DNA from: Streptomyces paludis
GTDB taxonomy: Bacteria > Actinomycetota > Actinomycetes > Streptomycetales > Streptomycetaceae
DNA: 64,000 nt
Direction of reading: 5' to 3'
Assembly: GCF_003344965.1 (NCBI RefSeq)
Contig: NZ_CP031194.1
Span: 6,820,001 to 6,884,000 of the forward strand
Shown here: piece by piece, positions 8,527 through 62,779 of the stretch
Position numbering within the stretch: the first letter of the stretch is position 1
Layout: each line of letters opens with the position of its first letter
Program-made: the position numbers and the translations under genes
Notes under the pieces: model-generated
Seen by the model: the letters and a program-made list of their open reading frames with translations, nothing else
Database searches by the model: none
What the model was told of the DNA's origin: nothing

Positions 8527-9546
<1,020 letters not shown>

Positions 9547-38832: not shown

Positions 38833-41800
38833 ATGACGCAGGCCGCTCACCGTGCAGCCACCCCGGCCTCGGCGCCGGCCCCGGACGCACGGCTCCCCAA
38901 GGAGAACGAGCTGGTCGAGGTACGCGGCCAGAGCTGGGTGGTCGCCCGGGTGGAGCCCGGCGGACCACCGTCCGAAGCCGCTCCCGTATCCGCTGCCGCC
39001 GCCACCGCGACCCTCGTCCATCTCCAGTCAGTCGCGGACGGTCGCTTCGGTGACACCCTCTCCGTCATCTGGGAGGTCGAACCGGGCCGCCGTGTGCTCC
39101 CCGCCGGATCGCTCCCCGACGCCTCCACCGGCCAGTACGACACACCGTCCCGCCTCGCCGCGTTCCTCGACGCGGTCCGCTGGTCGGCGGTCGCCTCCGC
39201 CGACGCCAAGACGCTCCAGGCTCCGTTCCGCTCGGGCGTCGCGATCGAGCCGTACCAGCTCGAACCCGTCTCCCGGGCCGTCGGGGCTCCGCGTGTGAAC
39301 CTCCTCCTCGCCGACGACGTCGGCCTCGGCAAGACCGTCGAAGCCGGGCTTGTCATCCAGGAACTGCTGCTGCGCGGCCGGGCCCGCCGCGTCATGGTCG
39401 TCTGCCCCGCCGGACTGACACTGAAGTGGCGCGACGAGATGGCCGAGAAGTTCGGCCTTGACTTCACCATCGTCGACTCCGAGCACTGCGCCCGGCTGCG
39501 CCGCACCCACGGCACCGCCGCGAACCCCTTCCGTGTGCACCCTCTGACCATCGTCTCCCTCCCCTGGCTGCGCGGTCAGAAGGCACAGCGCCTGCTCGGC
39601 GAGATCATCCCGTCCGGCGAGCGTACGGACGAGGCGGTGCCGGGACGCGACAGTGAAATCAAAGAAGCCGACGGACCGCGCCGCTTCTTCGATCTCCTCG
39701 TCCTCGACGAAGCCCACCACGTGGCACCGGCCGCGCCCAAGCAGGTCTACGCCGTCGACTCCCAGCAGACGAAGCTGATCCGATGGCTCGCCCCGCACTT
39801 CGAGCACCGGCTGTTCCTCTCGGCCACCCCGCACAACGGCTACCCCGAGTCGTACACCGCCCTGCTGGAGATCATCGACAACCAGAAGTTCATGCGGGGG
39901 ATGAACCCGGACGACAAGGCAGTCCGGGAGGCCGCCAAGGAGACGGTCGTCAGACGGCTGAAGAGCACGGTCAAGAATCCCGACGGTACGGACCGCTTCC
40001 GCACCCGCACGACACAACAGCTCCCGGTCGACTACACCGACCGCGAACGCGAGATCCATACCCTCCTCTCCGAGTTCGCCGCCCTCCGCAAGAAGCGCAT
40101 GACGAACAAGGCACGCGGCGGACGCCGTGCTGCCGACCTGGTCACCCTGCTGCTCAAGAAGCGGCTCTTCTCCTCCCCGGCCGCCTTCCTGCGTACCGTA
40201 CGGATCTACCTCTCCCACCTGGACAACACCGCCGGCCGGCCCCGCGCGGCAGCGGCCGACATCCCCGACTGGCTGGCCGAGTTCCCCGAACTCGCCGCCG
40301 AACTCGACGACGAGTCCCTCGCCGACGCCGAGGACGACGCACTGACCCGGTCCACCCGGCTCACCCCGGAGGAGGACGGCGAGGAACTGCGCCTACTGCG
40401 CGAGATGGAGCGCTGGGCGCTCACTCACGAGGCCACCGCCGACTCCAAGGCGGCAGAGCTGATCACCTATCTCAAGGCCGTCTGCCGCACCGACGACCAG
40501 CACTGGCAGAACGAACGGGTCGTGGTGTTCACCGAGTACCGGGACACCCAGAAGTGGCTGGTCGACCTGTTGCGCCAGGAGGAGATGACCGACGGAGGCC
40601 GGGTCGCCCAACTCCACGGCGCTCTCGCCACTCCCGAACGCGAACAGATCCGCCTGGGCTTCCAGGCCGCCCCCGACGGCGACGAGGGCAGGGTACGGAT
40701 CCTCATCGCCACCGACGCGGCCAGCGAGGGTATCGACCTGCAGAACCACTGCCACCGTCTGGTCAACTACGACATCCCCTTCAACCCCAACAAGCTCGAA
40801 CAGCGCATCGGGCGCATTGACCGCTGGGGGCAGCGGAAGAACCCGGAGATCTTCCACTTCGTCGGCACGGGCTGGGAACAGGCGGACGTCGGTTCGTACG
40901 AGGCCGACCTGGAATTCCTCTCCCGAGTCGCCAAGAAGGTCGCGAAAATGGAGGAGGACCTCGGCTCCGTCAACGCGGTCATCGCCGACGCCGTACAGCG
41001 CAGAATGGCCGGCGACCCGACCCCCGTCGACATCGAGAACGCCAGACCCCGGCTCATCGCCGGCCGCAGCACCGGCGGAAACGTCGCCGCCGACCAGAAC
41101 ATCACCGCCCAGGCCAGACGACTCGCCGAACAGTACGACGAGTCCGTCACCACCCTCGGCCTCAACCCCGCCACCATCAAACGCGTCGTCGACACGGCCC
41201 TCGCCCTTGACCACCAGCAGCCGCTCAGCCCCTGCCACGACCTCGCCCAGGACATCGACGGCGACCTGTTCACCGTCCCGCCGCTCACCGGCACCTGGGA
41301 ACGGGCGACCCGCGGCCTCGCCCACAAGCTGCGCCCCGCCGAACTGCGCCCGGTCACCTTCGACGCGAAGGTCGCCGCCGAGGGCCGTGACGACGTCGTA
41401 CTCGCCCACCTCAAGCACCCGCTCGTCGCGCTCTCCACCCGGCTGCTCACGGCGGCCGTATGGAACGCCGACAGCGTCGGCCTGCACCGCGTCACCGCGG
41501 TGGTCACCGACGATCCCGCCGTCGAGACCACTCTCGTCAGCGCGTACGCCCGCTATGTCCTCACCGGCACGGACGGTACCCGGCTGCACGAGGAAATCCT
41601 GTACGCGGGCGGCTGGTTCGGCGACACCGGACGCTTCCGCCGCTGGGAGTCGGTACGTTCCCAGGGCGCCACCCTCGCCCACGCGCTCACCACCGGCACA
41701 CCGGCCGCGCCGCATCTGCGCGACGGCCTCTCCGAAGCCTGGCCCCGGCTCGGCAAGCCGCTGTACGACTCTCTCTCCGCCCGCGCCCGCGAACTGCGCG

Positions 41801-42138
41801 CGAGCCTGGAAAGGCGCCTTCAGGAACGCAGGGACGAGGAAGAACGCCGGATCAACGCCACGCTCGACCGCTTCGAGGCCACTCTGCGCGCCAAGCTCAA
41901 GGAGGAGGGCGACAGCGTCGGCGACCAGATGGCCCTCTTCGGCGACCGCGAGGTCACCGCCACCGAACAGCACCAGTACCAGGAAGACCGCAAGCGCTGG
42001 AAGCTCCGCCTCGACAGCCTCGACGCGGAACGCACCCGTGAGCTCGCCGCCATCGCCGGCCGTTACCGTGAGCCCGGCTCGCACCTCTTCCCCGTAGCCG
42101 TCGTCTTCGTCATCCCCACCAAGGAAGCCCGCCGATGA
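38833..42138 (+). CDS. drmD: DISARM class 1 SNF2-like helicase DrmD
   Basis: 1101 residues. SF2 motor of the RapA/SNF2 type: DDVGLGKT (161-168), DEAH (292-295), LSATPHNGY (motif III), FTEYRDTQKWLV, ATDAASEGIDLQ and QRIGRIDRWGQ (motif VI, about 665). A long helical C-terminal region (about 740-1101) includes a Arg/Glu-rich coiled coil (1000-1060). In class 1 DISARM, drmD precedes the adenine methylase drmMI, as here, with the two genes coupled by ATGA. It carries out DNA translocation in the restriction complex. Driven by operator site C. Confidence 0.88.
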   Translation: MTQAAHRAATPASAPAPDARLPKENELVEVRGQSWVVARVEPGGPPSEAAPVSAAAATATLVHLQSVADGRFGDTLSVIWEVEPGRRVLPAGSLPDASTGQYDTPSRLAAFLDAVRWSAVASADAKTLQAPFRSGVAIEPYQLEPVSRAVGAPRVNLLLADDVGLGKTVEAGLVIQELLLRGRARRVMVVCPAGLTLKWRDEMAEKFGLDFTIVDSEHCARLRRTHGTAANPFRVHPLTIVSLPWLRGQKAQRLLGEIIPSGERTDEAVPGRDSEIKEADGPRRFFDLLVLDEAHHVAPAAPKQVYAVDSQQTKLIRWLAPHFEHRLFLSATPHNGYPESYTALLEIIDNQKFMRGMNPDDKAVREAAKETVVRRLKSTVKNPDGTDRFRTRTTQQLPVDYTDREREIHTLLSEFAALRKKRMTNKARGGRRAADLVTLLLKKRLFSSPAAFLRTVRIYLSHLDNTAGRPRAAAADIPDWLAEFPELAAELDDESLADAEDDALTRSTRLTPEEDGEELRLLREMERWALTHEATADSKAAELITYLKAVCRTDDQHWQNERVVVFTEYRDTQKWLVDLLRQEEMTDGGRVAQLHGALATPEREQIRLGFQAAPDGDEGRVRILIATDAASEGIDLQNHCHRLVNYDIPFNPNKLEQRIGRIDRWGQRKNPEIFHFVGTGWEQADVGSYEADLEFLSRVAKKVAKMEEDLGSVNAVIADAVQRRMAGDPTPVDIENARPRLIAGRSTGGNVAADQNITAQARRLAEQYDESVTTLGLNPATIKRVVDTALALDHQQPLSPCHDLAQDIDGDLFTVPPLTGTWERATRGLAHKLRPAELRPVTFDAKVAAEGRDDVVLAHLKHPLVALSTRLLTAAVWNADSVGLHRVTAVVTDDPAVETTLVSAYARYVLTGTDGTRLHEEILYAGGWFGDTGRFRRWESVRSQGATLAHALTTGTPAAPHLRDGLSEAWPRLGKPLYDSLSARARELRASLERRLQERRDEEERRINATLDRFEATLRAKLKEEGDSVGDQMALFGDREVTATEQHQYQEDRKRWKLRLDSLDAERTRELAAIAGRYREPGSHLFPVAVVFVIPTKEARR

Positions 42139-45100
42139 GCCGCCGCCCCGACTCCGCCGCCCGCGGCCTTGCCGCCGCCAGGGCCAAGGCCCTCGACGGC
42201 CGGGCCCAGCACCAGGAATGGCTCGACCTCACCGAGGTCACCGGCCCCTTCCTCACCCTGCCCGTACTGCGCGGGACCTGGCCCCAGCTCGACGCCATCG
42301 AGAAGTCCCAGCGCGAGGCTCTGCGCGGCCGGCACGCCGACTGGCAGACCGATCCCAGGGCGGGTCGCGACGAATGGATCGCGCATATCCTGCGCGACCT
42401 GCTGGAGTGGGGCGACGCGCTCACGCTGCGCCAAGGGGATGACGACGATCCGCTCCTGGACCGCTTCACGATCCACGTCCCCGAACACAACGCGCGGCTC
42501 AGGGCCGACTTCGCTCTACGTGAGCCCGGCAGCGACCCCGCCGCCGAACCCGACACGGCGGCGGCGGCCAAGCGGGTACCCCTCCTCGGCATGATCCTGC
42601 CCGCGGGTACCGTCCCCACCGCGCGCGACGACGGCGCGGGCGGCGGCACGCGAAGCGGCAACGGTACGGCCGGGAGTACGCGAGGAAGCGCGGCGGGGAG
42701 CACGGCCGGAAGTATGGCCGGGAGTACGGGCGGCACCTGGTCGGCCACCCCCGCCGACCGCCTGGCCCGCCTCTGCCGCCACCACGGCATCCCCCTCGGC
42801 CTTGCCACCGACGGCCGTTGGTGGTGCCTGGTCTGGGCCCCGGTCGGCGGGGTGACCACCACCGCGGTCCTCGACTCCATCGGCTGGAACGAAGCGGCGG
42901 AACGCAACGTCGTGCGCGCCTGGATCTCGATGCTGCGCAGATCCCGCTTCTTCCAGTACGAGGAGAAGGACACCCTCGTCGGGCTCCTGAAGCGCAGCCT
43001 GGAAGCGGGCGAGGAAGTCACGGACGCACTCGGTGTGCAGGTCCGCCAGGCGGTTGAGCTCCTCGTCGACGCCATAAGCCGGGCGGACGCCCGCGCGATG
43101 GAGAACGGCGCGCCGGGCCTGTACCGGGAGGACATCGCGGCCGACGACGTCTACCGGGGCGCGGTCGCCGTCATGATGCGCGTCGTCTTCCTGCTCTTCG
43201 CCGAGGAACACGGTCTGTTGCCGGCGGACAACGAGGTCTACGCCCGCTCCTACTCGGCCCGTTTCCTCCGCGCCGAACTCAAGGCCCGGGCCGACGCCGA
43301 GGGCGAGGCATCCCTTGAACACACCACCGCGGCCTGGCACAGGCTGATCGCGCTCTTCCACGCCGTACACGGCGGTGTGAACCACCCGGAGCTGAACCTC
43401 CCCGCGTACGACGGCTCACTGTTCGACCCACGGAAATACGCCTGGCTGGAGTCCACCAACCCGCTCCTCCCCATCGACGACCGCACGGTCCTCCACATGC
43501 TCCAGGCCGTACAAGAGGTCCAGGTCGGCACGGGAAAGAACCGCGAGATCCGCACCCTCAGCTTCCGCACCCTCGGCGTCGAAGAGATCGGCTACGTATA
43601 CGAGGGTCTCCTCTCGTACGACGGCGAGCGCGCGGTCGACACCGTCGTCGGCCTGATCGGACCGACGGGCCGCGAGCACGAGGTCGAGCTGCGCGAGCTG
43701 GAAGCCCTGGCAGCGGGCAGCCAGAACATCAAGACGTTGGCGAAGAAGATCGTCGACGCGTACAAGGAGCCCAAGCCGGGCATCGGCACACCGGCGAAGA
43801 TCGAACGGCTCCTGGCACCCCTCACGGGCGAGCAGCGCACAGAGGCGGAACGCCTGATCGACGCGGCGTGCAAGGAAAGGGAGTTGACGCAGCGCCTGCT
43901 GCCGTTCTTCGGCATCATCAGGCGTGACCTGCGCGGCCTGCCGGTCGTGATCAGGCCCGGAGCCCTGTACGTCACCGAGTCCCCGCTCCGCAAGAACACC
44001 GGCACGCACTACACACCCCGGCGCCTGGCGGAGGAGGTCGTCCACCACGCGCTGGAGCCCCTGGTGTACGAACCGGGCCCGCTGCAGACGGCGGACCGCA
44101 CGCAGTGGGTCCTCAAGAAGCCCCATCAGATCCTGGAACTCAAGGTCGCGGACATCGCGATGGGCTCCGCGGCCTTCCTGGTGGCGGCCTGCCGCTACCT
44201 TGCCAACAGCCTGATCGAGGCATGGGAGAACGACGGCCGCCCGGAGGCACTGCGCTACCGGGCGGGCCGGCGAGGCGACGCGATCACGGCGGTCGACGCC
44301 GAGTCGGACCAGGTCGTTGTCGAAGCGCGCCGCCAGGTCATCGAGCACTGCCTGTACGGCGTGGACATCAACCCCATGGCCGTCGAGATGGCGAAACTCT
44401 CGCTCTGGCTGGTCTCGATGGACCCGACCCGCCCGTTCACCTTCCTGGACGACCGCTTGGTGGCGGGGGACTCGCTGCTGGGGGTAGCCAACATGCAGCA
44501 ACTTGAGTCCATCCATCTGAAGCCGACAGGCCACGACGACATTTTCGGATGGGTCGAGGGCGCTCGCACGCGGGTGGACCAGCTAACTCGCGAACGGCTC
44601 GCCATCACTGCGATCAAGGGCATTGATCTGCCTGCGCTGCTCGACAAGCGTGAGCGCTTGGCACAGGTCAACCTTCACGCAGCACGGCTTCGGCTTGTCG
44701 GCGACTTGATCGTCGCGGCGGGGCTTGCCACGTGTGCCTCCGGCCGTGTGCACTGGTACGACGAGCAGGGTGGTACCCGCTTGCGAGACCTGTTCCCCAC
44801 GGCGGCCAGCATCGTCGGTGGCATTGTCGCCGCAGGGGTAGCTGACGATGCAGAGTCGGTGTGTGCCGCACGAGCGTCGGCGAATGAATGGCTGCGCAGC
44901 GAACTACCTGACGGTGGCCTGGAACGGCGTCCAGTGCATTGGCCGTTGGAATTCCCCGAGGTGTTCTCGGGACGCAGTGGGTTTGACGCGATCATTGGCA
45001 ACCCGCCGTTCCTTGGAGGACAGAAGCTAACGGGCGCGATGGGGGAGGCGTATCGGGAGTACCTGGTGGACTACCTTGCGGGCGGTAAACGGGGTAGCGC

Positions 45101-46460
45101 CGATCTTGTGGCCTACTTTGAGCTAAGAGCGCACAGTTTGCTGGGTGAATCCGGGCAAACTGGACTAATCGCGACGAATACCCTGGCCCAGGGTGACACC
45201 CGTGAAGTCGCCCTTGATCAGCTCATGGACGGCAAGTTTCAGATTCGCCGGGCTGTAAAGAGCGAGAAGTGGCCTTCGAGGTCTGCCGTGTTGGAGTATT
45301 GCGCGGTGTGGACCACGGCTCGTCCTCTTGACGCTGGCGCTGTGAGGATCCTTGATGGCTTGGAGGTTCGAGGTATCACCTCGTCCCTGTATCCAGAGTC
45401 GCGGGTGTCCGGTCGTCCGCATCGTTTGGCGTCCAGGGCGGGGCAGTCGTTCCAGGGTTCGAACGTGCTCGGCAAAGGATTCGTTCTCACCTGGGAGCAG
45501 GCCGAGGAGCTCATCGAGAGCGACCCGCGCAACCGGGATGTGATCTTCCCTTACCTCAACGGAGAAGACCTGAACTCCCGGCCAGACTGCTCCGCAAGCC
45601 GTCAGGTGATCAACTTCCACGACTGGACTGAGGAGCAAGCCCGCGAGTACCCGGAAGTATTCGCCATCATCGAGCGAGACGTGAAACCTGAACGAGCCAA
45701 GAACAAGCGAACCGCCAGGCGCGAACGGTGGTGGCAATACGCCGAGCGCGCGCCGAGGTTGTACGCAAGCATCGCCGGGATCGACCGTGTCCTGGTGGTA
45801 GCACGCGTGAGTAAAACAGGACTTCCAGTTCTTACATCCACAGCCCAGGTGATGAGCGAACAGACAGTTGTTTTTTCTACCGGTCGACTGCACCACCTGG
45901 CCTTTCTTAGTAGCGGGGTCCACTACACGTGGGCCGTCACCCGGGCGTCAAGCCTAAAAGGCGATCTTCGCTACACGCCGTCTGATGTTTATGAGACGTT
46001 GCCTCAGCCTGTGGCAACGGAACAAATGGAGAGAGTCGGAACCGCGCTCAATGAGTTGAGGGGCGGGATTATGGCCGATCGGCAACTGGGATTGACGAAG
46101 CTATACAACATGATCAACGATCGAACTGTTGTGGATAGCGATATTTCCTCCCTCCGCGGTGTCCACCGAGAGATTGATGCAGTCGTGACCGAGGCGTACG
46201 GGTGGTCTGATTTGACTCTCGGGCATGGTTTTTATTCAACCCGACAGGGCGCAAGATTCACGGTTGCACCTTCCGTGCAGACTGAAATTCTAGACCGTCT
46301 CCTGGAACTGAACCATGCTCAGTACAGAATGGAGGCAGTCAATGGGATTCACGCATCAAGGACGAGGTCATCAATGCGTCGAAATGCATCCACTCTCGGA
46401 GGATCGCCCAATAAATCAAACATGAATACCGATTCCGTCGCCTTGGATTCACTGTTTTGA
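42135..46460 (+). CDS. drmMI: DISARM class 1 adenine methyltransferase DrmMI, with an invertible C-terminus
   Basis: 1441 residues of the large PglX/Type IIG-like methylase class. Motif I is ADIAMGSAAF near Asp673; motif IV is NPPF (956-959). A Gly-Ser-Thr repeat linker occupies about 170-198. The last ~256 residues (from about 1186) should form the DNA target-recognition part. This part begins in the 41-bp repeat 45650-45690, contains the 272-bp repeat 45979-46250, and meets an opposite-facing alternative copy. In DISARM the methylase marks self DNA. The GC content falls in the C-terminal third, consistent with cassette exchange. Confidence 0.88.
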   Translation: MSRRPDSAARGLAAARAKALDGRAQHQEWLDLTEVTGPFLTLPVLRGTWPQLDAIEKSQREALRGRHADWQTDPRAGRDEWIAHILRDLLEWGDALTLRQGDDDDPLLDRFTIHVPEHNARLRADFALREPGSDPAAEPDTAAAAKRVPLLGMILPAGTVPTARDDGAGGGTRSGNGTAGSTRGSAAGSTAGSMAGSTGGTWSATPADRLARLCRHHGIPLGLATDGRWWCLVWAPVGGVTTTAVLDSIGWNEAAERNVVRAWISMLRRSRFFQYEEKDTLVGLLKRSLEAGEEVTDALGVQVRQAVELLVDAISRADARAMENGAPGLYREDIAADDVYRGAVAVMMRVVFLLFAEEHGLLPADNEVYARSYSARFLRAELKARADAEGEASLEHTTAAWHRLIALFHAVHGGVNHPELNLPAYDGSLFDPRKYAWLESTNPLLPIDDRTVLHMLQAVQEVQVGTGKNREIRTLSFRTLGVEEIGYVYEGLLSYDGERAVDTVVGLIGPTGREHEVELRELEALAAGSQNIKTLAKKIVDAYKEPKPGIGTPAKIERLLAPLTGEQRTEAERLIDAACKERELTQRLLPFFGIIRRDLRGLPVVIRPGALYVTESPLRKNTGTHYTPRRLAEEVVHHALEPLVYEPGPLQTADRTQWVLKKPHQILELKVADIAMGSAAFLVAACRYLANSLIEAWENDGRPEALRYRAGRRGDAITAVDAESDQVVVEARRQVIEHCLYGVDINPMAVEMAKLSLWLVSMDPTRPFTFLDDRLVAGDSLLGVANMQQLESIHLKPTGHDDIFGWVEGARTRVDQLTRERLAITAIKGIDLPALLDKRERLAQVNLHAARLRLVGDLIVAAGLATCASGRVHWYDEQGGTRLRDLFPTAASIVGGIVAAGVADDAESVCAARASANEWLRSELPDGGLERRPVHWPLEFPEVFSGRSGFDAIIGNPPFLGGQKLTGAMGEAYREYLVDYLAGGKRGSADLVAYFELRAHSLLGESGQTGLIATNTLAQGDTREVALDQLMDGKFQIRRAVKSEKWPSRSAVLEYCAVWTTARPLDAGAVRILDGLEVRGITSSLYPESRVSGRPHRLASRAGQSFQGSNVLGKGFVLTWEQAEELIESDPRNRDVIFPYLNGEDLNSRPDCSASRQVINFHDWTEEQAREYPEVFAIIERDVKPERAKNKRTARRERWWQYAERAPRLYASIAGIDRVLVVARVSKTGLPVLTSTAQVMSEQTVVFSTGRLHHLAFLSSGVHYTWAVTRASSLKGDLRYTPSDVYETLPQPVATEQMERVGTALNELRGGIMADRQLGLTKLYNMINDRTVVDSDISSLRGVHREIDAVVTEAYGWSDLTLGHGFYSTRQGARFTVAPSVQTEILDRLLELNHAQYRMEAVNGIHASRTRSSMRRNASTLGGSPNKSNMNTDSVALDSLF
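45650..45690 (+). repeat. Outer inverted repeat, left arm (41 bp)
   Basis: Identical, in inverse orientation, to 47222-47262. Encodes EVFAIIERDVKP of DrmMI. Sequence diverges immediately on both sides. Likely recombinase crossover site. Confidence 0.9.
45979..46250 (+). repeat. Inner inverted repeat, left arm (272 bp)
   Basis: Matches the reverse complement of 46662-46933 with one difference (C at 46157, silent Arg codon change). Encodes the conserved SDVYETLPQPVATEQ to YSTRQG block of DrmMI. Confidence 0.92.
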
Positions 46461-46661
46461 TTTCACGGATCAAAAAAGCGCGTCCATCCGCGCGGGCCCG
46501 GAATTTCCATCTTTGTCGCCGGTTGACCTGCCGGGTAGCAGAGTTTGACTACCGACGCTGATCAGGCAATGCGCACTCTCGGCATTCTTTTGTGTGTGAT
46601 TAAGCTCAAGGAGACGGTCCAGAATCTCGGTCTGCACGCGAGGCGAAACTGTAAACCTTGT

Positions 46662-46933
46662 GCCCTGTCGGGTTGAATAAAAACCATGCCCGAGAGTCAA
46701 ATCAGACCACCCGTACGCCTCGGTCACGACTGCATCAATCTCTCGGTGGACACCCCGGAGGGAGGAAATATCGCTATCCACAACAGTTCGATCGTTGATC
46801 ATGTTGTATAGCTTCGTCAATCCCAGTTGCCGATCGGCCATAATCCCGCCCCTCAACTCATTGAGCGCGGTTCCGACTCTCTCCATTTGTTCCGTTGCCA
46901 CAGGCTGAGGCAACGTCTCATAAACATCAGACG
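46662..46933 (-). repeat. Inner inverted repeat, right arm (272 bp)
   Basis: Pair of 45979-46250. The 411 bp between the inner arms hold only the two alternative C-terminal tails. Confidence 0.92.
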
Positions 46934-47221
46934 ACGAGTAATTAAGATCCGCCTTCATCGTTGATGAGTTGCGCCATGCCCAACTTGAGTGCAATGAACT
47001 CGACATGAGGGCGAGATTCGCGTTGTCGGGCAGGGTGAAGACGCCCAACTTGTGAGACAGAACCTGCCTGCTGGGAACAAGAGTCGGCATTACCGTTCGG
47101 CTCACAAGCGATACCACCAGGACACGTTCCAAGTCGTGAATAGCCTTCAGCATCGCTGGCCGCTTCTCGGCGTACTGCCACCAATAGCGACTGTACATCG
47201 TCCGATTATTTGTCAGCCGCA

Positions 47222-47262
47222 CAGGTTTCACGTCTCGCTCGATGATGGCGAATACTTCCGGG
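47222..47262 (-). repeat. Outer inverted repeat, right arm (41 bp)
   Basis: Pair of 45650-45690. The recombinase gene begins 147 bp beyond this arm, outside the invertible segment. Confidence 0.9.
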
Positions 47263-47280
47263 GATCGCCCCGCTTGTGTC

Positions 47281-47384
47281 GATAGTTAAACGTCCTACAT
47301 TGGTAAAAACGTCAAGGGAGTGCGATCAATCAAGATAATAATCGTTCAAAATTTGACAGATTCCTGACGAATCGTTTAACGATC
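47281..47384. repeat. Imperfect 12-bp inverted repeat in the recombinase leader
   Basis: GATAGTTAAACG (47281-47292) and CGTTTAACGATC (47373-47384) pair at 11 of 12 positions in an AT-rich leader. Possible recombinase or regulator binding arms; the right copy overlaps the candidate -10 box. Confidence 0.4.
47353..47383 (+). promoter_or_regulatory. Promoter of the recombinase gene
   Basis: TTGACA (47353-47358), 18-nt spacer, TAACGAT (47377-47383) in an AT-rich stretch just after the outer repeat. AGGGTG ribosome site follows at 47389-47394. Confidence 0.55.
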
Positions 47385-47408
47385 TTGTAGGGTGATCATT
47401 TTTTGCAT

Positions 47409-48257
47409 ATGACCCTTGATAGTTATGCGGCGTCCCAGCGTGCTGACGGTTACTCGCAGAACACCATAAATGCCAGAGTTCGATGCGTTCGAGCTATTGC
47501 CCGGGCTGCTGGTGTGGAGCCGGCGGGCTTGCGTGTGGAGCACGTTGGGTCGTACTTGGCTGCGAGGCCCCTCCTTCCTTGGTCGCGTCGAACTTATCTC
47601 AATCACCTGAAGTCGTTCGGTAGATGGTTGGGGGTTGATTTGGTGAAAGGGATAAGGAAGCCTCCTGCGCCGCGTTCCACGCCTAACCCTATAGCGGAAC
47701 AAGACCTCAAGAAGCTGTCCGCTTCAGCGCGGGGTGTTCAGAGAGCGTGGGTGCTGCTTGGTGCCTTCTGTGGTTTGCGTGCTCACGAGACTGCCAAGAT
47801 TGATCGAAAAGATGTGACGATACTTGAAAACGGAGACGTTTTTCTTCGCGTGATGGGAAAAGGTGGGCGAACGGATGTTGTGCCTGTCCCGCCTGTAGTC
47901 TTTAAGGAATTGAACCTCTCGGTTGAAGGTCCATTGTGGGCTGGTGTGCGTGCCGAAAAAGTGTCGCGGTCAATAGCGATTGCCGCATCGAAGCTTGGCA
48001 TTCGAATGAGATATCATCAACTGCGACATAGATATGGCACTGCAGTTTATCGGGCTTCAGGAAAGGATCTACTGCTTACGCAGAAATTGATGCGGCACGC
48101 TTCTCCCGCAACTACCGCCGGATATGCGGCCGTAGCCGATGATCAAGCTTATGTCATAGTTGGAGCGTTGCCAGGTGCTGACCCTAAAACAACAAGACGA
48201 GATATCACGAGGAAGTGGACCTCCTCGGTATGTAGTTCCTGTCAATCGCACAAGTAG
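47409..48257 (+). CDS. Tyrosine recombinase (phage-integrase family), predicted TRD invertase
   Basis: 282 residues from ATG 47409; a TTG at 47403 sits better relative to AGGGTG and would add two residues. An N-terminal SAM-like core-binding domain (about 1-85) leads to the catalytic domain with all expected residues: Arg124 (CGLRAHE), Lys151 (MGKGGR), His203 and Arg206 (YHQLRHRYG), His230 (LMRHASP) and Tyr239 (TAGYAAV) as nucleophile. Small, XerC/D-like size, with no prophage genes around it. Lower GC than the neighbours. Its position next to paired inverted repeats makes inversion of the drmMI cassette its probable job. A hairpin follows at 48313-48347. Confidence 0.87.
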   Translation: MTLDSYAASQRADGYSQNTINARVRCVRAIARAAGVEPAGLRVEHVGSYLAARPLLPWSRRTYLNHLKSFGRWLGVDLVKGIRKPPAPRSTPNPIAEQDLKKLSASARGVQRAWVLLGAFCGLRAHETAKIDRKDVTILENGDVFLRVMGKGGRTDVVPVPPVVFKELNLSVEGPLWAGVRAEKVSRSIAIAASKLGIRMRYHQLRHRYGTAVYRASGKDLLLTQKLMRHASPATTAGYAAVADDQAYVIVGALPGADPKTTRRDITRKWTSSVCSSCQSHK

Positions 48258-48359: not shown

Positions 48360-48581
48360 TCAGAGGGTTACGTCTTCCCGCCCGCTTGCGAAGTACACGA
48401 ACGAGCCCCAACTCTCGGCTGCTACTCGCAGTATCGGTCCCGGCGAACTCTTGGAGTCGCGGACGTGTACCGACCCCGGTGCGAGTGCCACTTCCACGCA
48501 CTCCCCGCCACCGGTACCGCTGTAGCTGCTCTTGAACCAGGCCAGGACTGGAGCGCGCTTGTCCGACTGGTTGTTGTTCAT
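48360..48581 (-). CDS. DUF397 small protein
   Basis: 73 residues. The DUF397 signature is clear: AWFKSSYSGTGGGECVEVAL, then VHVRDSKSSPGP and a terminal FVYFASG-type strand. It is coupled by ATGA to the preceding XRE/DUF5753 gene. In streptomycetes such pairs act as a regulator with a small antagonist, resembling toxin-antitoxin or BldB/WhiJ-like switches. Probably a functional pair here. Confidence 0.9.
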   Translation of the reverse strand: MNNNQSDKRAPVLAWFKSSYSGTGGGECVEVALAPGSVHVRDSKSSPGPILRVAAESWGSFVYFASGREDVTL

Positions 48582-49420
48582 AGCTCCCCTATGGTGCGCT
48601 CGATGAGACGTGCAGACTCCTCCATGTTGAGAGCCTGCGACCGGAGCATTCCATAGCGCAGCCAGAACTTGCTGACGTCGTCAGGTTCGGAGATCACCAC
48701 TCCGATGTCCTGTGATTCGATGTACGCCACGTTCCGGTGTTCTGGCGTCTCCACGAGCACCATGGACCCGTTGAGCCCGGAGTGGGATCCGAAGGCGGTT
48801 GGCATGATCTGGATCTGGACGTTGCGGGTTTCGGCGCGTTTCAGCAGTTGGTGAAGCTGCCGCTTCATGGCCTCTGGTCCACCCACTGGCCTGTGGAGGA
48901 CTGCTTCCTCGATCAGGAAGGATGCCACAAAAGGCGGCTTTTCGCGGTTCAAGATGTTTTGTCGGTCCATTCGAGCCGCGAGCCATTCGTCGATGGTGCC
49001 GGTGTCCAGCGGCGGAAAGTGGGCTGTGAGCAGGGCCCGCGCATACTCCTCAGTCTGGAGCAGCCCCGGGACGACGTAGCCGCCATACCAGAAGAAACTG
49101 ACCGCGTCCGATTCGATCGACGCGAAGTTCTGGAAGAACGTCGGCAGTCGCGCCAGGTCCACGTCCTTCTGCAACGCCTCCAGCGTCCCGTGTGCGGACA
49201 GCCTCGTCTCCGCTGCCTTCGTGAACACCGGCTTCGCCGGTCTGCGGCCCTGTTCGATCGAGCCGACCTGTTCGACCGAGTAGCCCACCACCTCGGCGAA
49301 TGTTTCCTGCGTCAGTCCCGCCCGTTCTCGGAAGAGCTTGACCAGTCTTCCGTAGGCGACCCAGACGCCCGGCCGTTCGTCGCCCTGGGTCCGCTGCTTC
49401 GTCTGACGGCTGGTTCCCAT
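48578..49420 (-). CDS. XRE-family HTH regulator with DUF5753 domain
   Basis: 280 residues from ATG 49420 (GAGG just upstream). The HTH lies at about 20-80 (GRLVKLFRERAGLTQETFAEVVGYSVEQVGSIEQGRR). DUF5753 follows with VVPGLLQTEEYARALL and the C-terminal YIESQDIGVVISEPDDVSKF region. Stop overlaps the DUF397 start. Placed between the recombinase and the second DISARM block, it is a candidate regulator of the switch or island, but no operator evidence links it. Confidence 0.88.
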   Translation of the reverse strand: MGTSRQTKQRTQGDERPGVWVAYGRLVKLFRERAGLTQETFAEVVGYSVEQVGSIEQGRRPAKPVFTKAAETRLSAHGTLEALQKDVDLARLPTFFQNFASIESDAVSFFWYGGYVVPGLLQTEEYARALLTAHFPPLDTGTIDEWLAARMDRQNILNREKPPFVASFLIEEAVLHRPVGGPEAMKRQLHQLLKRAETRNVQIQIMPTAFGSHSGLNGSMVLVETPEHRNVAYIESQDIGVVISEPDDVSKFWLRYGMLRSQALNMEESARLIERTIGEL

Positions 49421-49461
49421 ACGCCTCACACCTCAACGTGCTGACGTGCGCATCAAGTTAA

Positions 49462-49647
49462 CTGCCCAACGCCACGCACCTCATCCACGTCACGGCCCGC
49501 GACTCGTACAAGAGCGACCCCGACCCGTACAAGTTCAACCTTCTACATGAAGCCGTCTCGCATCACCACGTCACTCCATGCGGTGAACTCTGTACGCCGT
49601 CTCCGGGCACCCGAACGGCCGGAAGAGACGTGTCAACGGCCTCTTGA
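49462..49647 (+). pseudogene. Start-less coding remnant in the regulator/hypothetical gap
   Basis: A 61-codon open stretch after an in-frame TAA reads LPNATHLIHVTARDSYKSDP... with protein-like composition, ends at TGA 49645-49647 and has no start codon or ribosome site. It looks like the tail of a truncated gene. Family not recognised. Confidence 0.3.
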
Positions 49648-49701
49648 ACAGATGGAGTTCTCTCCCGGCGCCGCGCCCGTCCACCGGTACGCTTTGGGGC
49701 C

Positions 49702-50901: not shown

Positions 50902-50925
50902 GCCGGCGTTCCGAGCCGGCATTCC
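50900..50925. repeat. Tandem 13-bp repeat after the hypothetical gene
   Basis: GAGCCGGCGTTCC followed by GAGCCGGCATTCC, one difference, overlapping the stop of the 49702 gene. Minor slippage-type repeat. Confidence 0.4.
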
Positions 50926-50990
50926 GAACCGCCCACCCCGCGACGAACCACCTCACGGAAGCCGTGTCGGCGTAGCCCGGTCCGTACAAA

Positions 50991-51002
50991 GATCCTAGGA
51001 TC
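50991..51002. promoter_or_regulatory. GATCCTAGGATC palindrome upstream of the DUF2786 gene
   Basis: A perfect 12-bp palindrome flanked by CCGGT and ACCGG, about 40 nt before the GTG start. Possible operator of the DUF2786 gene. Confidence 0.35.
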
Positions 51003-51041
51003 ACCGGGACTTGGGGCCGAGACTTCATCGGGGAGAACGAC

Positions 51042-53423: not shown

Positions 53424-53433
53424 CGTCGTTGAG

Positions 53434-53480: not shown

Positions 53481-53495
53481 GTGGACCCGGCGGGA

Positions 53496-56188: not shown

Positions 56189-59100
56189 ATGCCCTCCCAG
56201 CCCGCCCCCGCACCCGGTGTGCCCCACCCCCTCGAAGAGGTGCCGCAGACCTTTCGCGCCGGCGACTCGTACGACGCGCGCGACGGTCTGGCGACGTATA
56301 TCCGCAGAGACCTTCTCGGTCCGTGGGCGCTGGAGAACGGCGGAGTGAGGGAACAGCTCCCGCAAGGTTCGGCGGGTCCGCGCGACCGCTATCTCGTGGG
56401 GATGCTCGGCCCCCGTTCCCAGGGTGTTACGGCTGATCAGCGGGCTCGTACCGCAGCTCAGGCCACGGAGGGCGAGGCGGGCGGCGACGGGGACGCGAGC
56501 GAGGGCGAACTGCGGGACCGGCTCACCCCGCAGGCCGCCGGACGGATCTGGGCGTCGTCCATGGGGCTCTCCTTCGTGGTGCCCGCTTCGATCGGCACAC
56601 TCAGCGTCGTCGCCTCCTGGGGGCGGTACACGCTCACCGACACCGTCACCGACGCCGGTGGTCCGCGGCGGGTGTGGGAGCGCGAACCGGTGTCCCATCC
56701 GTGCGACATCGACGTCGTCGGAACCGGCGACCGCACGGTGGTTCTGGAGGGTGACGAGGACGCGGGCATTCACCTGAACGTGCAGGTGCGCGAGCGGGGC
56801 GCGGGCCCGGAGCGGGAAGACCTGCGGGTGGTGGAGGTCGCGCTCGTCAACAAACTCCAGGACACGGCGGAGCGCCGCGACGCCAACTGGCTCTTCCAGA
56901 CGGCACTTGTCGTCACGGCGTTCCCCGACGACCGGGCCGCGGTCTTCCTGCCGATCGACGATCCGCTTGCGCCCGGCGCGGCCGGTGACACCGAGGACCG
57001 GGAAGAGGTGCGACTGCGCCTGCTCTACCGCGACACCCTGCGCCACTCGGTCGGCCGCAACGTCGCCGTGAACGCCGAAGTGCGCCGTGGCGAGCGTTAT
57101 GCCCACCGGCTTGCCACCACCTGGCTGCCGGAGTATGACGTACGGGCCACCACCGCGCCCGCGGCGGAGCAGCAGGACCTCCTGACCGGCCTGGAACTGG
57201 GCATGGACGAGCTGGCAGAACTCGCCGTGCCTGCCCGCCGCAAGGAGCTCACCGAAGCGCTCGCCCCGCTCGCCGACGGCTACCATTCCTGGCTCCGGAC
57301 ACAGCTCGCGGCGGCCCAGCCGCTCCCCTCCGATCTGCGGCAGGCCGCCGTGACCGCGATCGAGCAGGCCGAGGACGTCTGCCACCGCATCGCCTTTGGG
57401 ATCGACGCGCTCAGCACCGACGACAACGCACTCGAAGCGTTCCGCTTCGCCAACCGGGCGATGGCGCTGCAACGGCGCAATACCGCCGTCGCCGCCCGTC
57501 GGGCCGGCCGAGAGGACGACGTCTCCTCCTACCGCGAGGCGTACGATGAGGTGTATGCCACCGGGAAGGGCGGCGCCGAATGGCGGCCGTTCCAGCTGGC
57601 CTTCGTCCTTCTCAACCTCGCCTCGCTCACCGAGCCCGGCCACCCGCACCGGTCCACCAGCCGCGAAGCCCTCGTCGACCTGCTCTTCTTCCCGACCGGC
57701 GGTGGCAAGACCGAGGCGTATCTCGGTCTGGCCGCCTACACGTTCGCGTTGCGAAGGCTCCAGGGCGTCATCGGTACGGGAACCGAGGCGCGCAGCGGTG
57801 AAGCCGGCGTTGGCGTGCTGATGCGCTACACACTCCGGCTGCTGACCGCCCAGCAGTTCCAGCGTGCCGCGGCCCTGGTCGCGGCGGCCGAGAAGCTGCG
57901 CCGGGACGAATTCGGCCGGTCGAGGTGCGACCGTACGCAGTGTGCCGGGCGCGCGGCGTGTGCCCATCCGAAGCGCTGGGGCAGGACACCGTTCCGTATC
58001 GGACTGTGGGTGGGCACTTCTGTCTCGCCGAACTGGTTCACCGACGCGCAGGAGCAGATCGCCGGCGCGAAGGAGAGCGGCAGTGACAAGCACGCACGGG
58101 TTCTTCAAGTACTCAACTGCCCTTGGTGCGGTCAAGGCTTGACTGCTCGTCAGAACATGGAACACGACGATGGCCGGCGCCGCGTGCTTCTGTTCTGTCC
58201 GCGTGGAGAAGGTGAGGACCGCTGCCCCTTCTCGCGGCGCGACTCGCCCGGCGAGGGCATCCCCGTACTCACCGTGGACGAGGAGATTTACCGGCTGGCC
58301 CCCGCCATGGTGATCGCCACGGTCGACAAGCTGGCCCAACTGCCCTGGAACGGCTACGCCGGGCTGCTCTTCGGCCGGGTCACCGAATGGTGCGAGCGGC
58401 ACGGCTACCGCCACGACGACCTGGACCAGCAGACCGGTTGCCGCAGCAGACATACCGTCAGGGACGGACTGAAGGCGGTCACCGCGCAGCCCGTCCCCGC
58501 CCGGCTGCGGCCCCCGGACCTGATCATCCAGGACGAGCTGCATCTGATCTCGGGAGCGCTCGGCACCACCGTCGGACTCTTCGAGGCGGCGGTCGATCAG
58601 CTGTGCAGCTGGACCTACACCGACAGTGAGGGCGTCCGCCGGGACGTCGGGCCCAAGATCGTCGCGTCCACGGCCACCACCAAGCGCGCCGCCGAACAGG
58701 TACGTGGTGTGTTCGGCCGACGGGTGGCGGTCTTCCCGCCGCAGGTGCTGGACGTGGGCGACACGTTCTTCTCGCGGCAGATGGAGCACAGCCGTGACCA
58801 GCCGGGTCGCCGCTATCTGGGAGTGTGCGCCCACGGGACCCGTCTGAAGGCGGCCGAGATCAGGGTGGCCGAGATTCTGCTGCTCGGAGGGCAGCAGCTC
58901 TTCGACGACTACGGGGCAGCCGCCGATCCCTATATGACCCTCGTCGGCTACTTCAACGCCACTCGTGAACTCGCGGGCATGCGCAGGTACCTGGACGACG
59001 ACATCACCACCAGAGTACGGAGCAACGGCGGCCGCAAGGGCAGCGATCCGATCGCCGACCGCATCATCACCCGGGCCGGGATGCTGAACATCCAGGAACT

Positions 59101-60112
59101 GACCTCCCGCATCTCCTCGGCGGACATCAGTCTGACGCTCAAGCGGCTGGAGAGCGGCTTCGATCCGGAGCGCGACACCTCGCTGCGACGCAAGGCGCTC
59201 GCTGCCGAGTACCGTTCCGCCCTGCTGGAGAAGCGTGAACGGCGGGCCGCACTGACGCCCTTCGAGAAGCAGGCGGTGGACGTCGTCCTCGCCACCTCCA
59301 TGCTTCAGGTCGGCGTCGACGTGTCCCGGTTCGGTCTGATGCTCGTCGTCGGCCAGCCGAAGAACACGGCCGAGTACATCCAGGCATCGTCCCGAGTGGG
59401 CCGTGACAGACACCGTCCCGGTCTCGTCGTCACGCTCTACAACTGGTCCCGCCCCCGTGACCTGGCGCACTTCGAGGACTTCGCCCACTACCACGCCACC
59501 TTCTACCGGCAGGTCGAGGCGCTCTCCGTCACCCCGTTCACCCGGCGGGCCCTGGACCGCGGCACCGCGCCCACGTACATCGCCGCGCTGCGGCAGGCCA
59601 CGTACGAGCACTCCCGCAACACCGACGCCCAGCACATCGACCTCGACGGTGAGATCGCGGGCGAGGTCGAGCGGCGCCTGCTGGAAAGGGCGGAGCGGGT
59701 CGGTGGCAGCCGCGCGCGGGAGTATCTGCAGGACCGGATCGGGACGCTCAAGGACAAGTGGGCCGATCGGCGCGAGACCGGGGGAGTCCTCGGCTTCCGA
59801 CGGGAGAAGAAGAAGGACACCCTGGTCACGCCGTTGCTGCACAAGGCGGACGGCTCGCGTTGGGACGAACTCACCGTCCCGATGTCCATGCGTGAGACGG
59901 AGAATGAACTCAATCTGCTGATCCAGGGGGGTGGCGCCTTCATGGACCAGCCCTCGAGCAGCGGACCAGGCTGGCGCTTCAGCCCGGCCGGAGGTGATGG
60001 CGCGGACACGGACGCCGTCACCGGCGGCGGCGACACCCCCGTCGACGCCGACGAGTACGGAGAGACGGCGGCCGGCGACGGCGCTGCCGGAAAGGGACGG
60101 CGACAGCGATGA
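56189..60112 (+). CDS. drmA: DISARM helicase DrmA
   Basis: 1307 residues. SF2 helicase with Walker A PTGGGKTEAYLG (Lys507), DELH box (782-785), STATTKRAAEQ (motif III), ATSMLQVGVDVSRFG and QASSRVGRDRHRPG (motif VI, about 1065-1078). Zinc-binding cysteines occur near 575-600 and in CPWCGQGL...CPRGEGEDRCPF between motifs I and II. The N-terminal ~350 residues are DISARM-specific. DrmA and DrmB form the core that loads onto phage DNA ends. ATGA overlap with drmB. Expressed from the site D promoter, separately from drmD-drmMI. Confidence 0.9.
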   Translation: MPSQPAPAPGVPHPLEEVPQTFRAGDSYDARDGLATYIRRDLLGPWALENGGVREQLPQGSAGPRDRYLVGMLGPRSQGVTADQRARTAAQATEGEAGGDGDASEGELRDRLTPQAAGRIWASSMGLSFVVPASIGTLSVVASWGRYTLTDTVTDAGGPRRVWEREPVSHPCDIDVVGTGDRTVVLEGDEDAGIHLNVQVRERGAGPEREDLRVVEVALVNKLQDTAERRDANWLFQTALVVTAFPDDRAAVFLPIDDPLAPGAAGDTEDREEVRLRLLYRDTLRHSVGRNVAVNAEVRRGERYAHRLATTWLPEYDVRATTAPAAEQQDLLTGLELGMDELAELAVPARRKELTEALAPLADGYHSWLRTQLAAAQPLPSDLRQAAVTAIEQAEDVCHRIAFGIDALSTDDNALEAFRFANRAMALQRRNTAVAARRAGREDDVSSYREAYDEVYATGKGGAEWRPFQLAFVLLNLASLTEPGHPHRSTSREALVDLLFFPTGGGKTEAYLGLAAYTFALRRLQGVIGTGTEARSGEAGVGVLMRYTLRLLTAQQFQRAAALVAAAEKLRRDEFGRSRCDRTQCAGRAACAHPKRWGRTPFRIGLWVGTSVSPNWFTDAQEQIAGAKESGSDKHARVLQVLNCPWCGQGLTARQNMEHDDGRRRVLLFCPRGEGEDRCPFSRRDSPGEGIPVLTVDEEIYRLAPAMVIATVDKLAQLPWNGYAGLLFGRVTEWCERHGYRHDDLDQQTGCRSRHTVRDGLKAVTAQPVPARLRPPDLIIQDELHLISGALGTTVGLFEAAVDQLCSWTYTDSEGVRRDVGPKIVASTATTKRAAEQVRGVFGRRVAVFPPQVLDVGDTFFSRQMEHSRDQPGRRYLGVCAHGTRLKAAEIRVAEILLLGGQQLFDDYGAAADPYMTLVGYFNATRELAGMRRYLDDDITTRVRSNGGRKGSDPIADRIITRAGMLNIQELTSRISSADISLTLKRLESGFDPERDTSLRRKALAAEYRSALLEKRERRAALTPFEKQAVDVVLATSMLQVGVDVSRFGLMLVVGQPKNTAEYIQASSRVGRDRHRPGLVVTLYNWSRPRDLAHFEDFAHYHATFYRQVEALSVTPFTRRALDRGTAPTYIAALRQATYEHSRNTDAQHIDLDGEIAGEVERRLLERAERVGGSRAREYLQDRIGTLKDKWADRRETGGVLGFRREKKKDTLVTPLLHKADGSRWDELTVPMSMRETENELNLLIQGGGAFMDQPSSSGPGWRFSPAGGDGADTDAVTGGGDTPVDADEYGETAAGDGAAGKGRRQR

Positions 60113-62004
60113 GCAGCGGCTACTTCCGCAGAGTCGGCGCGGCCCGGCCCAGTCACCTCATGTACACCGCGGGCGTGGGAGCCCTGATCGACCTGCCGAA
60201 CTTCTCCGTACTGGTCAAGGGCCTCGAATCCTGGAGCCACGCGGGCCTCACGGACTACACCATCGACGAGCCCCGGCTGCGTACCGCGGTCAACCGCTCG
60301 CTCCAGCTCTACGGCAACGCGCGGATCACCGAGCTGCGCGCCGCCCCCTGGACCGAGGGCGCGGACAAGTCTCCCAAGGGGACGGCCGCGCAGGACATCG
60401 GGGTGCCGGTCATGCCGTTCCCCCAGTGGTTGCGGTGCACCGCCTGCAACCTCCTCGCCGCCATCGACACCGAGGCGTTCGCGTTCATCAACAGCAATCC
60501 ACGCGCCCCGCACGAAGCGAAGTTCGTGCATGACTGCAAGTCCGGTAAACCGCTTGCCGTGGCGGCCCGCTTCACTCTGGTCTGTGTCGGCGGGCATCTC
60601 GACGAATTCCCCTACAACCCGTTCGTCCACAGCGGTACGGTCTGCCCCAGGACGGCCCGGCCGCTGCTGAGGATGAAGGACCACGGTGGCAATCAGGCCG
60701 CGAACGTGACCATCGAATGCGTTGCCTGCGGCGCGAAGCGCAATATCCGGGACGCGATGGGAGAGCGTGGCCGCCGTAATCTGCCCGCCTGCCGTGGCCG
60801 CCATCCGCACCGTGCCTCGTACGAGCACGAGGGGTGCGCCGAGGAAGCGACCCTCATGGTCGCCGGCGCGTCCAACCAGTGGTTCCCGATCACCCTGAGC
60901 GCCCTCGCGCTGCCGCCGGCCCGAGGCGAGGACATCGCCGAACTCATCGAAGCGCGCTGGGAGGAGCTGAAGGGCATCACCTCCCGGGCCATCTACGACG
61001 TGATCGCCGCGCTCCCCGGATACGGCTATCTCAAGGAGCACGACCCCGCCGCGATCGTCGCCGCCGTCGAGGCCCGGCACCAGGGGGCCACCGGGCAGGG
61101 CGACCAGGAGGCCGCCGCCCCCGTGGACCTCCTCGGCCCGGAGTGGGCCGCACTCGCGTCGGCCGATGTGCCCACGCCGACGGACGACTTCACCCTGGCC
61201 CCCGTCACCGTGCCCCCGGCACTGACGGGCCTTTTCTCGGACGTGCGTCAGGTGGAGCGGCTCCGTGAGGCACGCGCGCTGATCGGCTTCACCCGGCTCG
61301 ACGCGCCCGACCACGAGGCTCCCGAGATCGCCACGCCGGTGACACTGTCCCGTACCTCGCAAGGCTGGGTACCGGCCAGTGAGGTACGCGGCGAAGGGAT
61401 TTTTCTGCGGGTGCGGGAGGACCTGCTGACCGAGTGGGCGCAGCGCATGAAGACGTCTCCGCAGATGGCGGCACATCGCAAGGCGTTCGGCCAGTTCCGT
61501 ACCAACCGCAGATCCGATCGCTCGACCGGCCCCTTCGACGCGATGAGTGGCTGGCCGGGCGAACGCTACATCGCCCTCCACACCCTCTCGCATCTGCTGA
61601 TCCGCACGATCGCCCTCGAATGCGGCTACAGCTCGGCGAGCCTCGCCGAACGCATCTACGCGGGCGACGAGGCGGACCCGAGAGCCGGCATCCTGATCTA
61701 CACGGCGGTCCCCGACTCGGAGGGCACCCTCGGCGGACTCGTCTCGCTCGCCGACGAACCCCACTTCGAACGCATTGTCCGCAGGGCACTCAGGGATGCG
61801 GCGCGCTGCTCCTCGGACCCGCTCTGCGCCGAACGGCTCCCGCACGACACCGCGGACTATCTGCACGGGGCTGCCTGCCATGTCTGTCTCTTCGTCTCCG
61901 AGACGACGTGCGAACGCGGAAACCGGTTCCTCGACCGCCGCTTTCTGGTGCCCCTCGGAGACGGCCCCGACCAGGTGCTGACTCCGCGGGCCCTGCGGCC
62001 GTGA
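60109..62004 (+). CDS. drmB: DISARM protein DrmB (DUF1998)
   Basis: 631 residues. The DUF1998 domain (about 480-615) has YIALHTLSHLLIRTIALECGYSSASLAERIYA and the cysteine-rich end AACHVCLFVSETTCERGN. Extra zinc-ligand pairs are CTACN near 110 and CVACG near 204. It is the obligate partner of DrmA, forming the DrmAB core in DISARM. Start ATG overlaps drmA stop by 4 nt; drmC starts 16 nt after the stop. Confidence 0.9.
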   Translation: MSSGYFRRVGAARPSHLMYTAGVGALIDLPNFSVLVKGLESWSHAGLTDYTIDEPRLRTAVNRSLQLYGNARITELRAAPWTEGADKSPKGTAAQDIGVPVMPFPQWLRCTACNLLAAIDTEAFAFINSNPRAPHEAKFVHDCKSGKPLAVAARFTLVCVGGHLDEFPYNPFVHSGTVCPRTARPLLRMKDHGGNQAANVTIECVACGAKRNIRDAMGERGRRNLPACRGRHPHRASYEHEGCAEEATLMVAGASNQWFPITLSALALPPARGEDIAELIEARWEELKGITSRAIYDVIAALPGYGYLKEHDPAAIVAAVEARHQGATGQGDQEAAAPVDLLGPEWAALASADVPTPTDDFTLAPVTVPPALTGLFSDVRQVERLREARALIGFTRLDAPDHEAPEIATPVTLSRTSQGWVPASEVRGEGIFLRVREDLLTEWAQRMKTSPQMAAHRKAFGQFRTNRRSDRSTGPFDAMSGWPGERYIALHTLSHLLIRTIALECGYSSASLAERIYAGDEADPRAGILIYTAVPDSEGTLGGLVSLADEPHFERIVRRALRDAARCSSDPLCAERLPHDTADYLHGAACHVCLFVSETTCERGNRFLDRRFLVPLGDGPDQVLTPRALRP

Positions 62005-62020
62005 GCGACGGGGAGCGGCC

Positions 62021-62779
62021 ATGAGCCGCAAGGAGTTCGAGGCCGCGGCGGAAGCGGCCGCGGAAGCCCTCGGCTCCTCCCGTACCAAGGACCTGGCCGG
62101 TGTGCTGTCGCGCGGCCGGGGACTGGACCACGCGCTGGACGCGGTACCGGGCCCCGACTCGCGCGACGCTGTCGTGGCGCTGTACGCGGCGACGGAACGC
62201 GCACGGATTCCTTACACCGAGGCCGCCGCGTATATACGCGGATTTGTGGCCGGCTGGGCGCGGCGCCGCGACGAGGTCGACGTCCGTACGGTGTGGAGCG
62301 GGCCCGCCACCCCAGGCGTTCCGGTTCGCGCGACGGCACGGGTACTGATCGAGGTCGTCCGCGAGGCACGCACCGAACTCCTGGCCATGACCTATTCGGC
62401 GCGCCCGTACGCCCCCTTGGCCAGAGCACTGTCGGACGCTGTGGACCGAGGTGTCGAGGTCCACGTGGTCGTCGAGACACGCCGAGGTGCGTCGGGACTG
62501 CTGAGCGGCCCCGAACCGGCCGCCGCGTTCTCAGCGGTCCGGGGGGTTCGGCTGTGGCACTGGGATCCGGCCGAGCGAGAATTCACGCACGCGCGTCAGC
62601 ACGCCAAGCTGGCTGTCGCGGACCGTCGTCTCCTCTTGCTCGGCAGCGCGAACCTCACCGAGTCCGGGGTGCGCAGAAACCTTGAAGCCGGAGTCCTCGT
62701 TAGGGGAGGAACAGCTCCCCAACGGGCGGCGGACCACATAAGAGAACTTCAGCGGCGTCACATTCTGGTGCCCGTGTGA
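62021..62779 (+). CDS. drmC: DISARM phospholipase D-family protein DrmC
   Basis: 252 residues; GGGGAG 8 nt before the ATG. A single PLD-type HxK motif: QHAKLAVADRRLLLLGSANLTESG, with His194 and Lys196, so a dimer would make a complete active site. The N-terminal ~75 residues are helical. DrmC is the usual third gene after drmAB and is reported as dispensable for some DISARM activity. Ends the defence island. Confidence 0.9.
   Translation: MSRKEFEAAAEAAAEALGSSRTKDLAGVLSRGRGLDHALDAVPGPDSRDAVVALYAATERARIPYTEAAAYIRGFVAGWARRRDEVDVRTVWSGPATPGVPVRATARVLIEVVREARTELLAMTYSARPYAPLARALSDAVDRGVEVHVVVETRRGASGLLSGPEPAAAFSAVRGVRLWHWDPAEREFTHARQHAKLAVADRRLLLLGSANLTESGVRRNLEAGVLVRGGTAPQRAADHIRELQRRHILVPV

Follow-up and report, generated by a model that had tools for sequence, protein, structure and literature searches.

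The DNA analysed here (the window) is a stretch of 64,000 nucleotides (nt) from Streptomyces paludis (contig NZ_CP031194.1, positions 6,820,001 to 6,884,000), part of a complete 8.45-Mb chromosome (G000). It harbors a DISARM system whose methyltransferase gene, drmMI, very probably contains a two-state DNA-inversion cassette: as predicted from the sequence, an adjoining tyrosine recombinase would flip a segment bounded by 41-base-pair (bp) inverted repeats and thereby exchange the recognition end of DrmMI for that of a silent, backwards copy (Table 1). By gene content the system is class 1 DISARM: the core set drmA, drmB and drmC is present at 56189-62779, and drmD and the PglX-like adenine methyltransferase gene drmMI lie at 38833-46460 (PADLOC, both E = 0). 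This agrees with the content given for class I in the available text of PMC12458937, namely drmD, encoding a RapA/BrxHII-like helicase, and the PglX-like adenine methyltransferase gene drmMI.

The predicted invertible segment and the adjoining recombinase

The 41-bp arms stand well above chance. In 20 mononucleotide shuffles the longest perfect inverted repeat measured 14-17 bp, and in the rest of the window, with the locus removed, the longest within 5 kb was 17 bp. When the segment 45650-47262 is inverted in silico, drmMI stays open, yielding a product of 1435 rather than 1441 residues in which the first 1185 are unchanged and the exchanged ends count 256 versus 250 residues. The silent cassette is open and, once inverted, in frame with the constant part, as in inverting specificity loci. 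A search of the genome with DrmMI hits only the gene and the silent cassette, and one with the recombinase hits only the recombinase itself (E <= 0.001), which gives an apparent two-copy system. The PADLOC model PDLC02626 (276 residues), which is named DrmD, matches both the DrmMI C-terminus (45888-46406) and the silent cassette (46470-47261); silent cassettes of this kind may have served to build the model, whose name would then be wrong.

Inside the two cassettes lies a further, inner inverted repeat of 368 nt, which includes a perfect 178-bp stretch. Positions 45981-46250 and 46662-46931 are identical at 269 of 270 nt, and residues 1283-1372 at 90 of 90, so that the clearly divergent parts of the cassettes are residues 1186-1282 (39 of 97 identical) and the tail. 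This near-identity, which is unlike the situation in relatives, suggests recent gene conversion or an inner inversion.

DrmMI has a recognition domain of the MmeI type (Type IIL), for which both the MmeI_TRD domain and the fold are present. Whole DrmMI gave no match in PDB at E <= 0.001 with phmmer; a 32-row profile search of PDB found MmeI, which is the best match of both the profile and the models. In the alignment, the exchanged part falls on the subdomain with which MmeI reads base pairs 3-6. At the positions of MmeI 773 and 774, with residues taken from the alignment, at least one residue differs between the two cassettes in all seven loci compared. The residue pair at MmeI 806/808 is described as setting G:C versus C:G according to whether it is K-D or E-R (available text of PMC4833311), and this pair differs in just that way between the cassettes of two relatives, L005 and L048. 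In the N-terminal half of DrmMI no nuclease domain was found among the Pfam matches, a result that does not include a targeted search for nuclease motifs.

The recombinase is encoded inside the locus, as in inverting specificity loci, and its likely start, ATG 47409, lies 146 nt from the right arm. It is full length and, in a 12-row alignment, keeps the family residues R, K, HxxR, H and Y, which we take to be catalytic. Its closest named relatives come from Streptomyces. Plasmid relatives all share less than 60% identity with it (72 records; H1-H20, among the matches listed, at 26-35%), and a search for relatives in viral contigs found none. The string GAAGTWTT was considered as an invariant site within the arms and was ruled out by relative L048, which carries GACGTCTT.

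A preliminary description of this DNA had placed the 41-bp repeats exactly where they are found, and its account of an in-frame alternative copy facing the C-terminal end of a DISARM methyltransferase, next to a complete tyrosine recombinase, agrees with the open 1435-residue product, the DrmMI, DrmD, DrmA, DrmB and DrmC matches and the Phage_integrase match (the start being 146 nt from the arm rather than the 147 bp proposed). It had also called the exchanged segments near-equal in length, which holds, although its figures of about 259 versus 253 residues were counted slightly differently. The inner inverted repeat was absent from it.

Table 1. Features of the DISARM locus and its predicted invertible segment, in window positions
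Feature	Position	Strand	Evidence or remark
drmD, SNF2-type helicase, class 1 DISARM	38833..42138	+	PADLOC DrmD E = 0; Pfam SNF2-rel_dom, Helicase_C
drmMI, adenine methyltransferase with MmeI-type target recognition domain, 1441 residues, assembled state	42135..46460	+	PADLOC DrmMI E = 0; Pfam Eco57I, MmeI_Mtase, MmeI_TRD
drmMI constant part, residues 1-1185, common to both predicted states	42135..45689	+	in-silico inversion
Left 41-bp arm, coding, within drmMI, PEVFAIIERDVKP	45650..45690	+	perfect inverted repeat; homologous site in both copies of relatives
Expressed recognition segment, residues 1186-1282	45690..45980	+	aligns with MmeI recognition domain; 39/97 identical to silent counterpart
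Inner inverted repeat, expressed side, 368 nt, 92%	45948..46315	+	
Silent alternative drmMI 3' cassette, 263 codons	46470..47261	-	PADLOC DrmMI 7.5e-83; MmeI_TRD; model matches MmeI 697-906
Inner inverted repeat, partner arm in silent cassette	46597..46964	-	
Right 41-bp arm	47222..47262	-	perfect inverted repeat
Tyrosine recombinase, likely start ATG 47409, 282 residues, outside the invertible segment	47403..48257	+	Pfam Phage_integrase; PDB 5vfz Gp33 7e-23
drmA	56189..60112	+	PADLOC DrmA 2.9e-288
drmB	60109..62004	+	PADLOC DrmB 7.4e-73
drmC	62021..62779	+	PADLOC DrmC 1.7e-111

Related loci and genomic surroundings

Nine distinct loci carry a recombinase at least 65% identical: the window, L013 (in G110), L005 to L010, and L048 (in G830, from another genus of the family). 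L049 belongs to the same genome as L007 and was counted once, L002 is part of L013, and the weaker recombinase matches at L003, L004, L011 and L012 (28-36% identity) were excluded; no DISARM gene was found in the examined stretches around these four, which for L003 and L004 are shorter than 4 kb. DISARM genes surround the recombinase in all nine loci. An inverted second arm is present in eight, L006 included, while the contig of the ninth, L008, begins inside the backwards copy. The homologue of the arm site occurs in both copies in seven relatives (L013, L005, L006, L007, L009, L010 and L048). Wherever both cassettes can be read (7/7 loci, window included), the silent one is open and in frame, and both cassettes terminate in LF. 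The gap between arm and recombinase measures 104-149 nt in every locus except L008. In L006 (S. aidingensis) a run of N at 8351-9555 fills exactly the interval between the arms (8030-8350 and 9556-9876); the run could be masking or a gap in the assembly, which mixed orientations might produce.

Among 392 sampled genomes from the genus of the window, 33 had a DrmMI relative (E <= 1e-60) and 2 a close recombinase, both of which fall among the 33. Twenty-eight of the 31 DrmMI genomes without the recombinase were examined (G034, G080 and G261 were left out), and their examined flanks contained no inverted second cassette or inverted repeat (0/28). One locus, L050 in G122, has two full-length DrmMI-type genes facing each other (1721-5851 and 9609-13772) between the end of drmD and the start of drmA, without a recombinase; this pair, which lies farther away, was not scored as a cassette among the 28 controls, and it is possibly a different way to keep two specificities. 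A class-wide search (394 genomes) returned only the window, and a family-wide search (394 genomes) added only G830 and G970, the latter corresponding to L007. Among 120 listed recombinase relatives and 120 listed DrmMI relatives, at least eight apparent same-assembly pairs were counted by eye, including the window's own and that of Nocardiopsis sp. FR4.

The arms also bear traces of past recombination. In six relatives the two arms of a locus agree at every position over 167-334 nt (L010 is cut at a contig end), whereas a comparison between loci gives a mean identity of 76% over 280 nt (15 pairs, drawn from six loci). Recombination between two repeats keeps them alike, and this pattern suggests concerted evolution and hence past inversion. 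In the window the outer homology comprises only 41 bp, so that, provided all loci share one site, the crossover would be confined to PEVF..VKP. Sister proteins point in the same direction: between P0135 and P0137 identity is 99.5% across the N-terminal 1100 residues and complete through the site, but falls to 52% in a C-terminal slice. The core of L013 is 98.8% and 98.4% identical to P0135 and P0137, respectively; its expressed segment is 85% identical to that of P0135 and 48% to that of P0137, and its silent cassette is 89% identical to the segment of P0137. From their sequences, the sister proteins look like two states, which suggests that either cassette type is expressed in nature. More broadly, among listed DrmMI relatives longer than 1300 residues (from 120), 75 pairs share at least 94% of their first 1100 residues, and in 70 of these pairs the C-terminal slice was less than 70% identical, the presence of the recombinase being known for a minority of these proteins.

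Other genes near the locus include three for Ser/Thr protein kinases upstream of drmD (30144-31643, 36137-37099 and 37103-38719, Pfam). The latter two give strong PADLOC PD-T4-6 matches, and the kinases possibly form a second defence module. Farther upstream, a protein with a PD-(D/E)XK nuclease domain (PF12705) is encoded at 28165-30045 on the minus strand. The interval between the recombinase and drmA (48578-55859) contains a helix-turn-helix/DUF5753 regulator (minus strand), a DUF2786/DUF7168 protein and three proteins without a Pfam match.

The predicted switch and its alternatives

In the mechanism that we propose, the adjoining recombinase likely recombines the 41-bp arms, and inversion would replace the C-terminal ~250 residues of DrmMI, and with them the second half of the recognition domain, by the counterpart encoded in the backwards copy. 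The crossover would fall within PEVF..VKP, close to where the first recognition subdomain ends, so that in the MmeI scheme the residue set for base pair 2 would remain constant while the sets for base pairs 3-6 would change. Both products would be active methyltransferases with different motifs. A clone would then hold cells with different methylation marks, and phage progeny bearing the mark of one state would be unprotected in cells of the other. Inversion would thus likely alter the DNA sequence marked by DrmMI, and hence the phages restricted.

Several observations weigh against this picture. The strongest, as evidence against free and unbiased flipping, is an orientation bias: the residue at the MmeI-773 position is E in the expressed cassette of six of the seven readable loci (window, L013, L005, L009, L010 and L048), and H or Q in the silent cassette of all seven. 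The H type is expressed in L007 and in protein P0137, and the bias could reflect a biased switch, selection without phages or slow inversion. A single assembly yields a single state. The arms contain no convincing palindromic core for a recombinase site, the best mean complementarity being 0.51 against a mean of 0.26 (standard deviation 0.10) over many placements, and the site codons, GAA GTW in seven loci, are GAC GTC in the eighth, L048. Recognition itself is read at low resolution. Identity to MmeI is ~18% and the root-mean-square deviation 10-11, which makes base-by-base predictions weak; MmeI columns 723, 737, 738 and 751 cannot be aligned reliably; and 806/808 is K-D in either cassette of the window, so that a change at base pair 6 is not predicted. 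A weak prediction from MmeI for this strain is G:C at the position following the methylated A in both states, the bases that precede this A being the ones to change; in L005 and L048 the position following the A would also switch between G:C and C:G. Finally, the stretch of ~40 residues that follows the site reassorts between species with respect to the remaining subdomain. Such mosaic segments indicate that lateral exchange contributes to recognition-segment diversity, and the same follows from L013, whose cassettes share just 85-89% identity with the cassettes of sister proteins that otherwise nearly match it.

These points bear differently on the explanations that compete with a recombinase-driven specificity switch. 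The segment might instead invert through ordinary homologous (RecA) recombination, with the adjoining recombinase incidental. The arms of the relatives, at 167-334 identical nt, are long enough for this in principle, the 269 of 270 identical nt of the inner block point to homologous exchange between the cassettes, and inversion at the pneumococcal spnIII locus is described as independent of all known pneumococcal site-specific recombinases (available text of PMC6620402). We consider the explanation improbable all the same: close relatives of the recombinase lie within DISARM in all nine loci, with a spacing of 104-149 nt to the silent arm in each of the eight where it was measured, the cassette is missing from all 28 recombinase-less DrmMI loci, and the outer arm of the window is down to 41 bp. 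That short homology could itself be taken as a sign of decay, the backwards copy then being a relict of duplication or lateral segment exchange in a strain that has lost inversion. The single state of each assembly, the 6/7 preponderance of one expressed type and the mosaic segments would fit such a history, but a relict seems unlikely given silent cassettes that are open and in frame in every readable locus, the window's included, a full-length recombinase with conserved family residues, and arms that are alike inside each locus. A last alternative accepts the inversion and disputes its effect: the locus would be an on/off or tail-swapping switch, either because the alternative product is inactive or because only the C-terminal tail changes via the inner repeat. 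The inner repeat, with its perfect 178-bp stretch, could invert alone and swap only tails, and residues 1283-1372 are the same in both cassettes; we regard this alternative as having little probability.

The recombinase-driven specificity switch, which had been put forward in the preliminary description, is supported at the level of sequence by the class 1 DISARM context, the open alternative segment, the homogenised arms, the nine recombinase loci in DISARM and the sister proteins that resemble the two states. A broader proposal, towards which we lean with some reserve, is that DISARM has a dedicated specificity-switching subtype: a recombinase would flip the recognition half of DrmMI and give each clonal population two self/non-self codes, and the inner repeat would add tail combinations. 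Since only DrmMI changes while DrmA-D are constant, its recognition domain alone would have to set the self/foreign motif in such a subtype.

Significance and known systems

The way in which DISARM discriminates between self and phage DNA is understood only in part, and a methylation-sensitive DrmAB has been described (available text of PMC9142583). A natural DrmMI switch would open this question to experiment: should each orientation restrict phage that does not carry its mark, the DrmMI domain is the address reader of the whole DISARM system; should restriction be the same in both orientations, it is not. If the predicted switch is real, DISARM joins the defences that hedge against phages with acquired host methylation, and one assembly or methylome of such a strain may reveal just one state. 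Within the open-licence PubMed Central literature, a scope outside which most subscription papers lie, the available texts describe no inversion or recombinase-driven switching of DISARM (PMC12003011, PMC9142583, PMC12707154, PMC7365801, PMC10164179, PMC9122589, PMC9009780, PMC5903667, PMC12602166, PMC12458937, PMC7513527, PMC7394358, PMC7511551, PMC8637289). The preliminary description, which knew of no such switch and cited precedents in Type I HsdS and BREX PglX, is borne out on both counts within this scope.

The closest solved relative of the DrmMI methyltransferase and recognition domain is MmeI (Type IIL, 5hr4), which differs in being a stand-alone enzyme; the available text of PMC4833311 mentions neither an inverted copy nor a recombinase. 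The inverting Type I hsdS loci, such as SpnD39III and the Streptococcus suis system, likewise pair an expressed specificity gene with an oppositely oriented silent variant by way of inverted repeats, encode a recombinase in the locus and exchange recognition domains (available texts of PMC7394358 and PMC4948785). The drmMI locus differs from them in that it has no separate HsdS subunit, the recognition domain being fused to the methyltransferase, and in that there is one silent, partial copy. A BREX locus with a full and a partial PglX and an integrase, as far as its available description goes, likewise involves a fused methyltransferase/specificity protein of an anti-phage system. In phage growth limitation, the variation of PglX is of the on/off kind and arises by slippage in a repeat tract, unlike the inversion predicted for drmMI. 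Phage growth limitation in Streptomyces coelicolor (BREX type 2) is likewise a case of phase variation of a PglX-type methyltransferase in phage defence (available text of PMC9122589). The inversion mechanism is therefore of a known kind, with counterparts in HsdS and BREX PglX, and is apparently new for DISARM within the open-licence literature.

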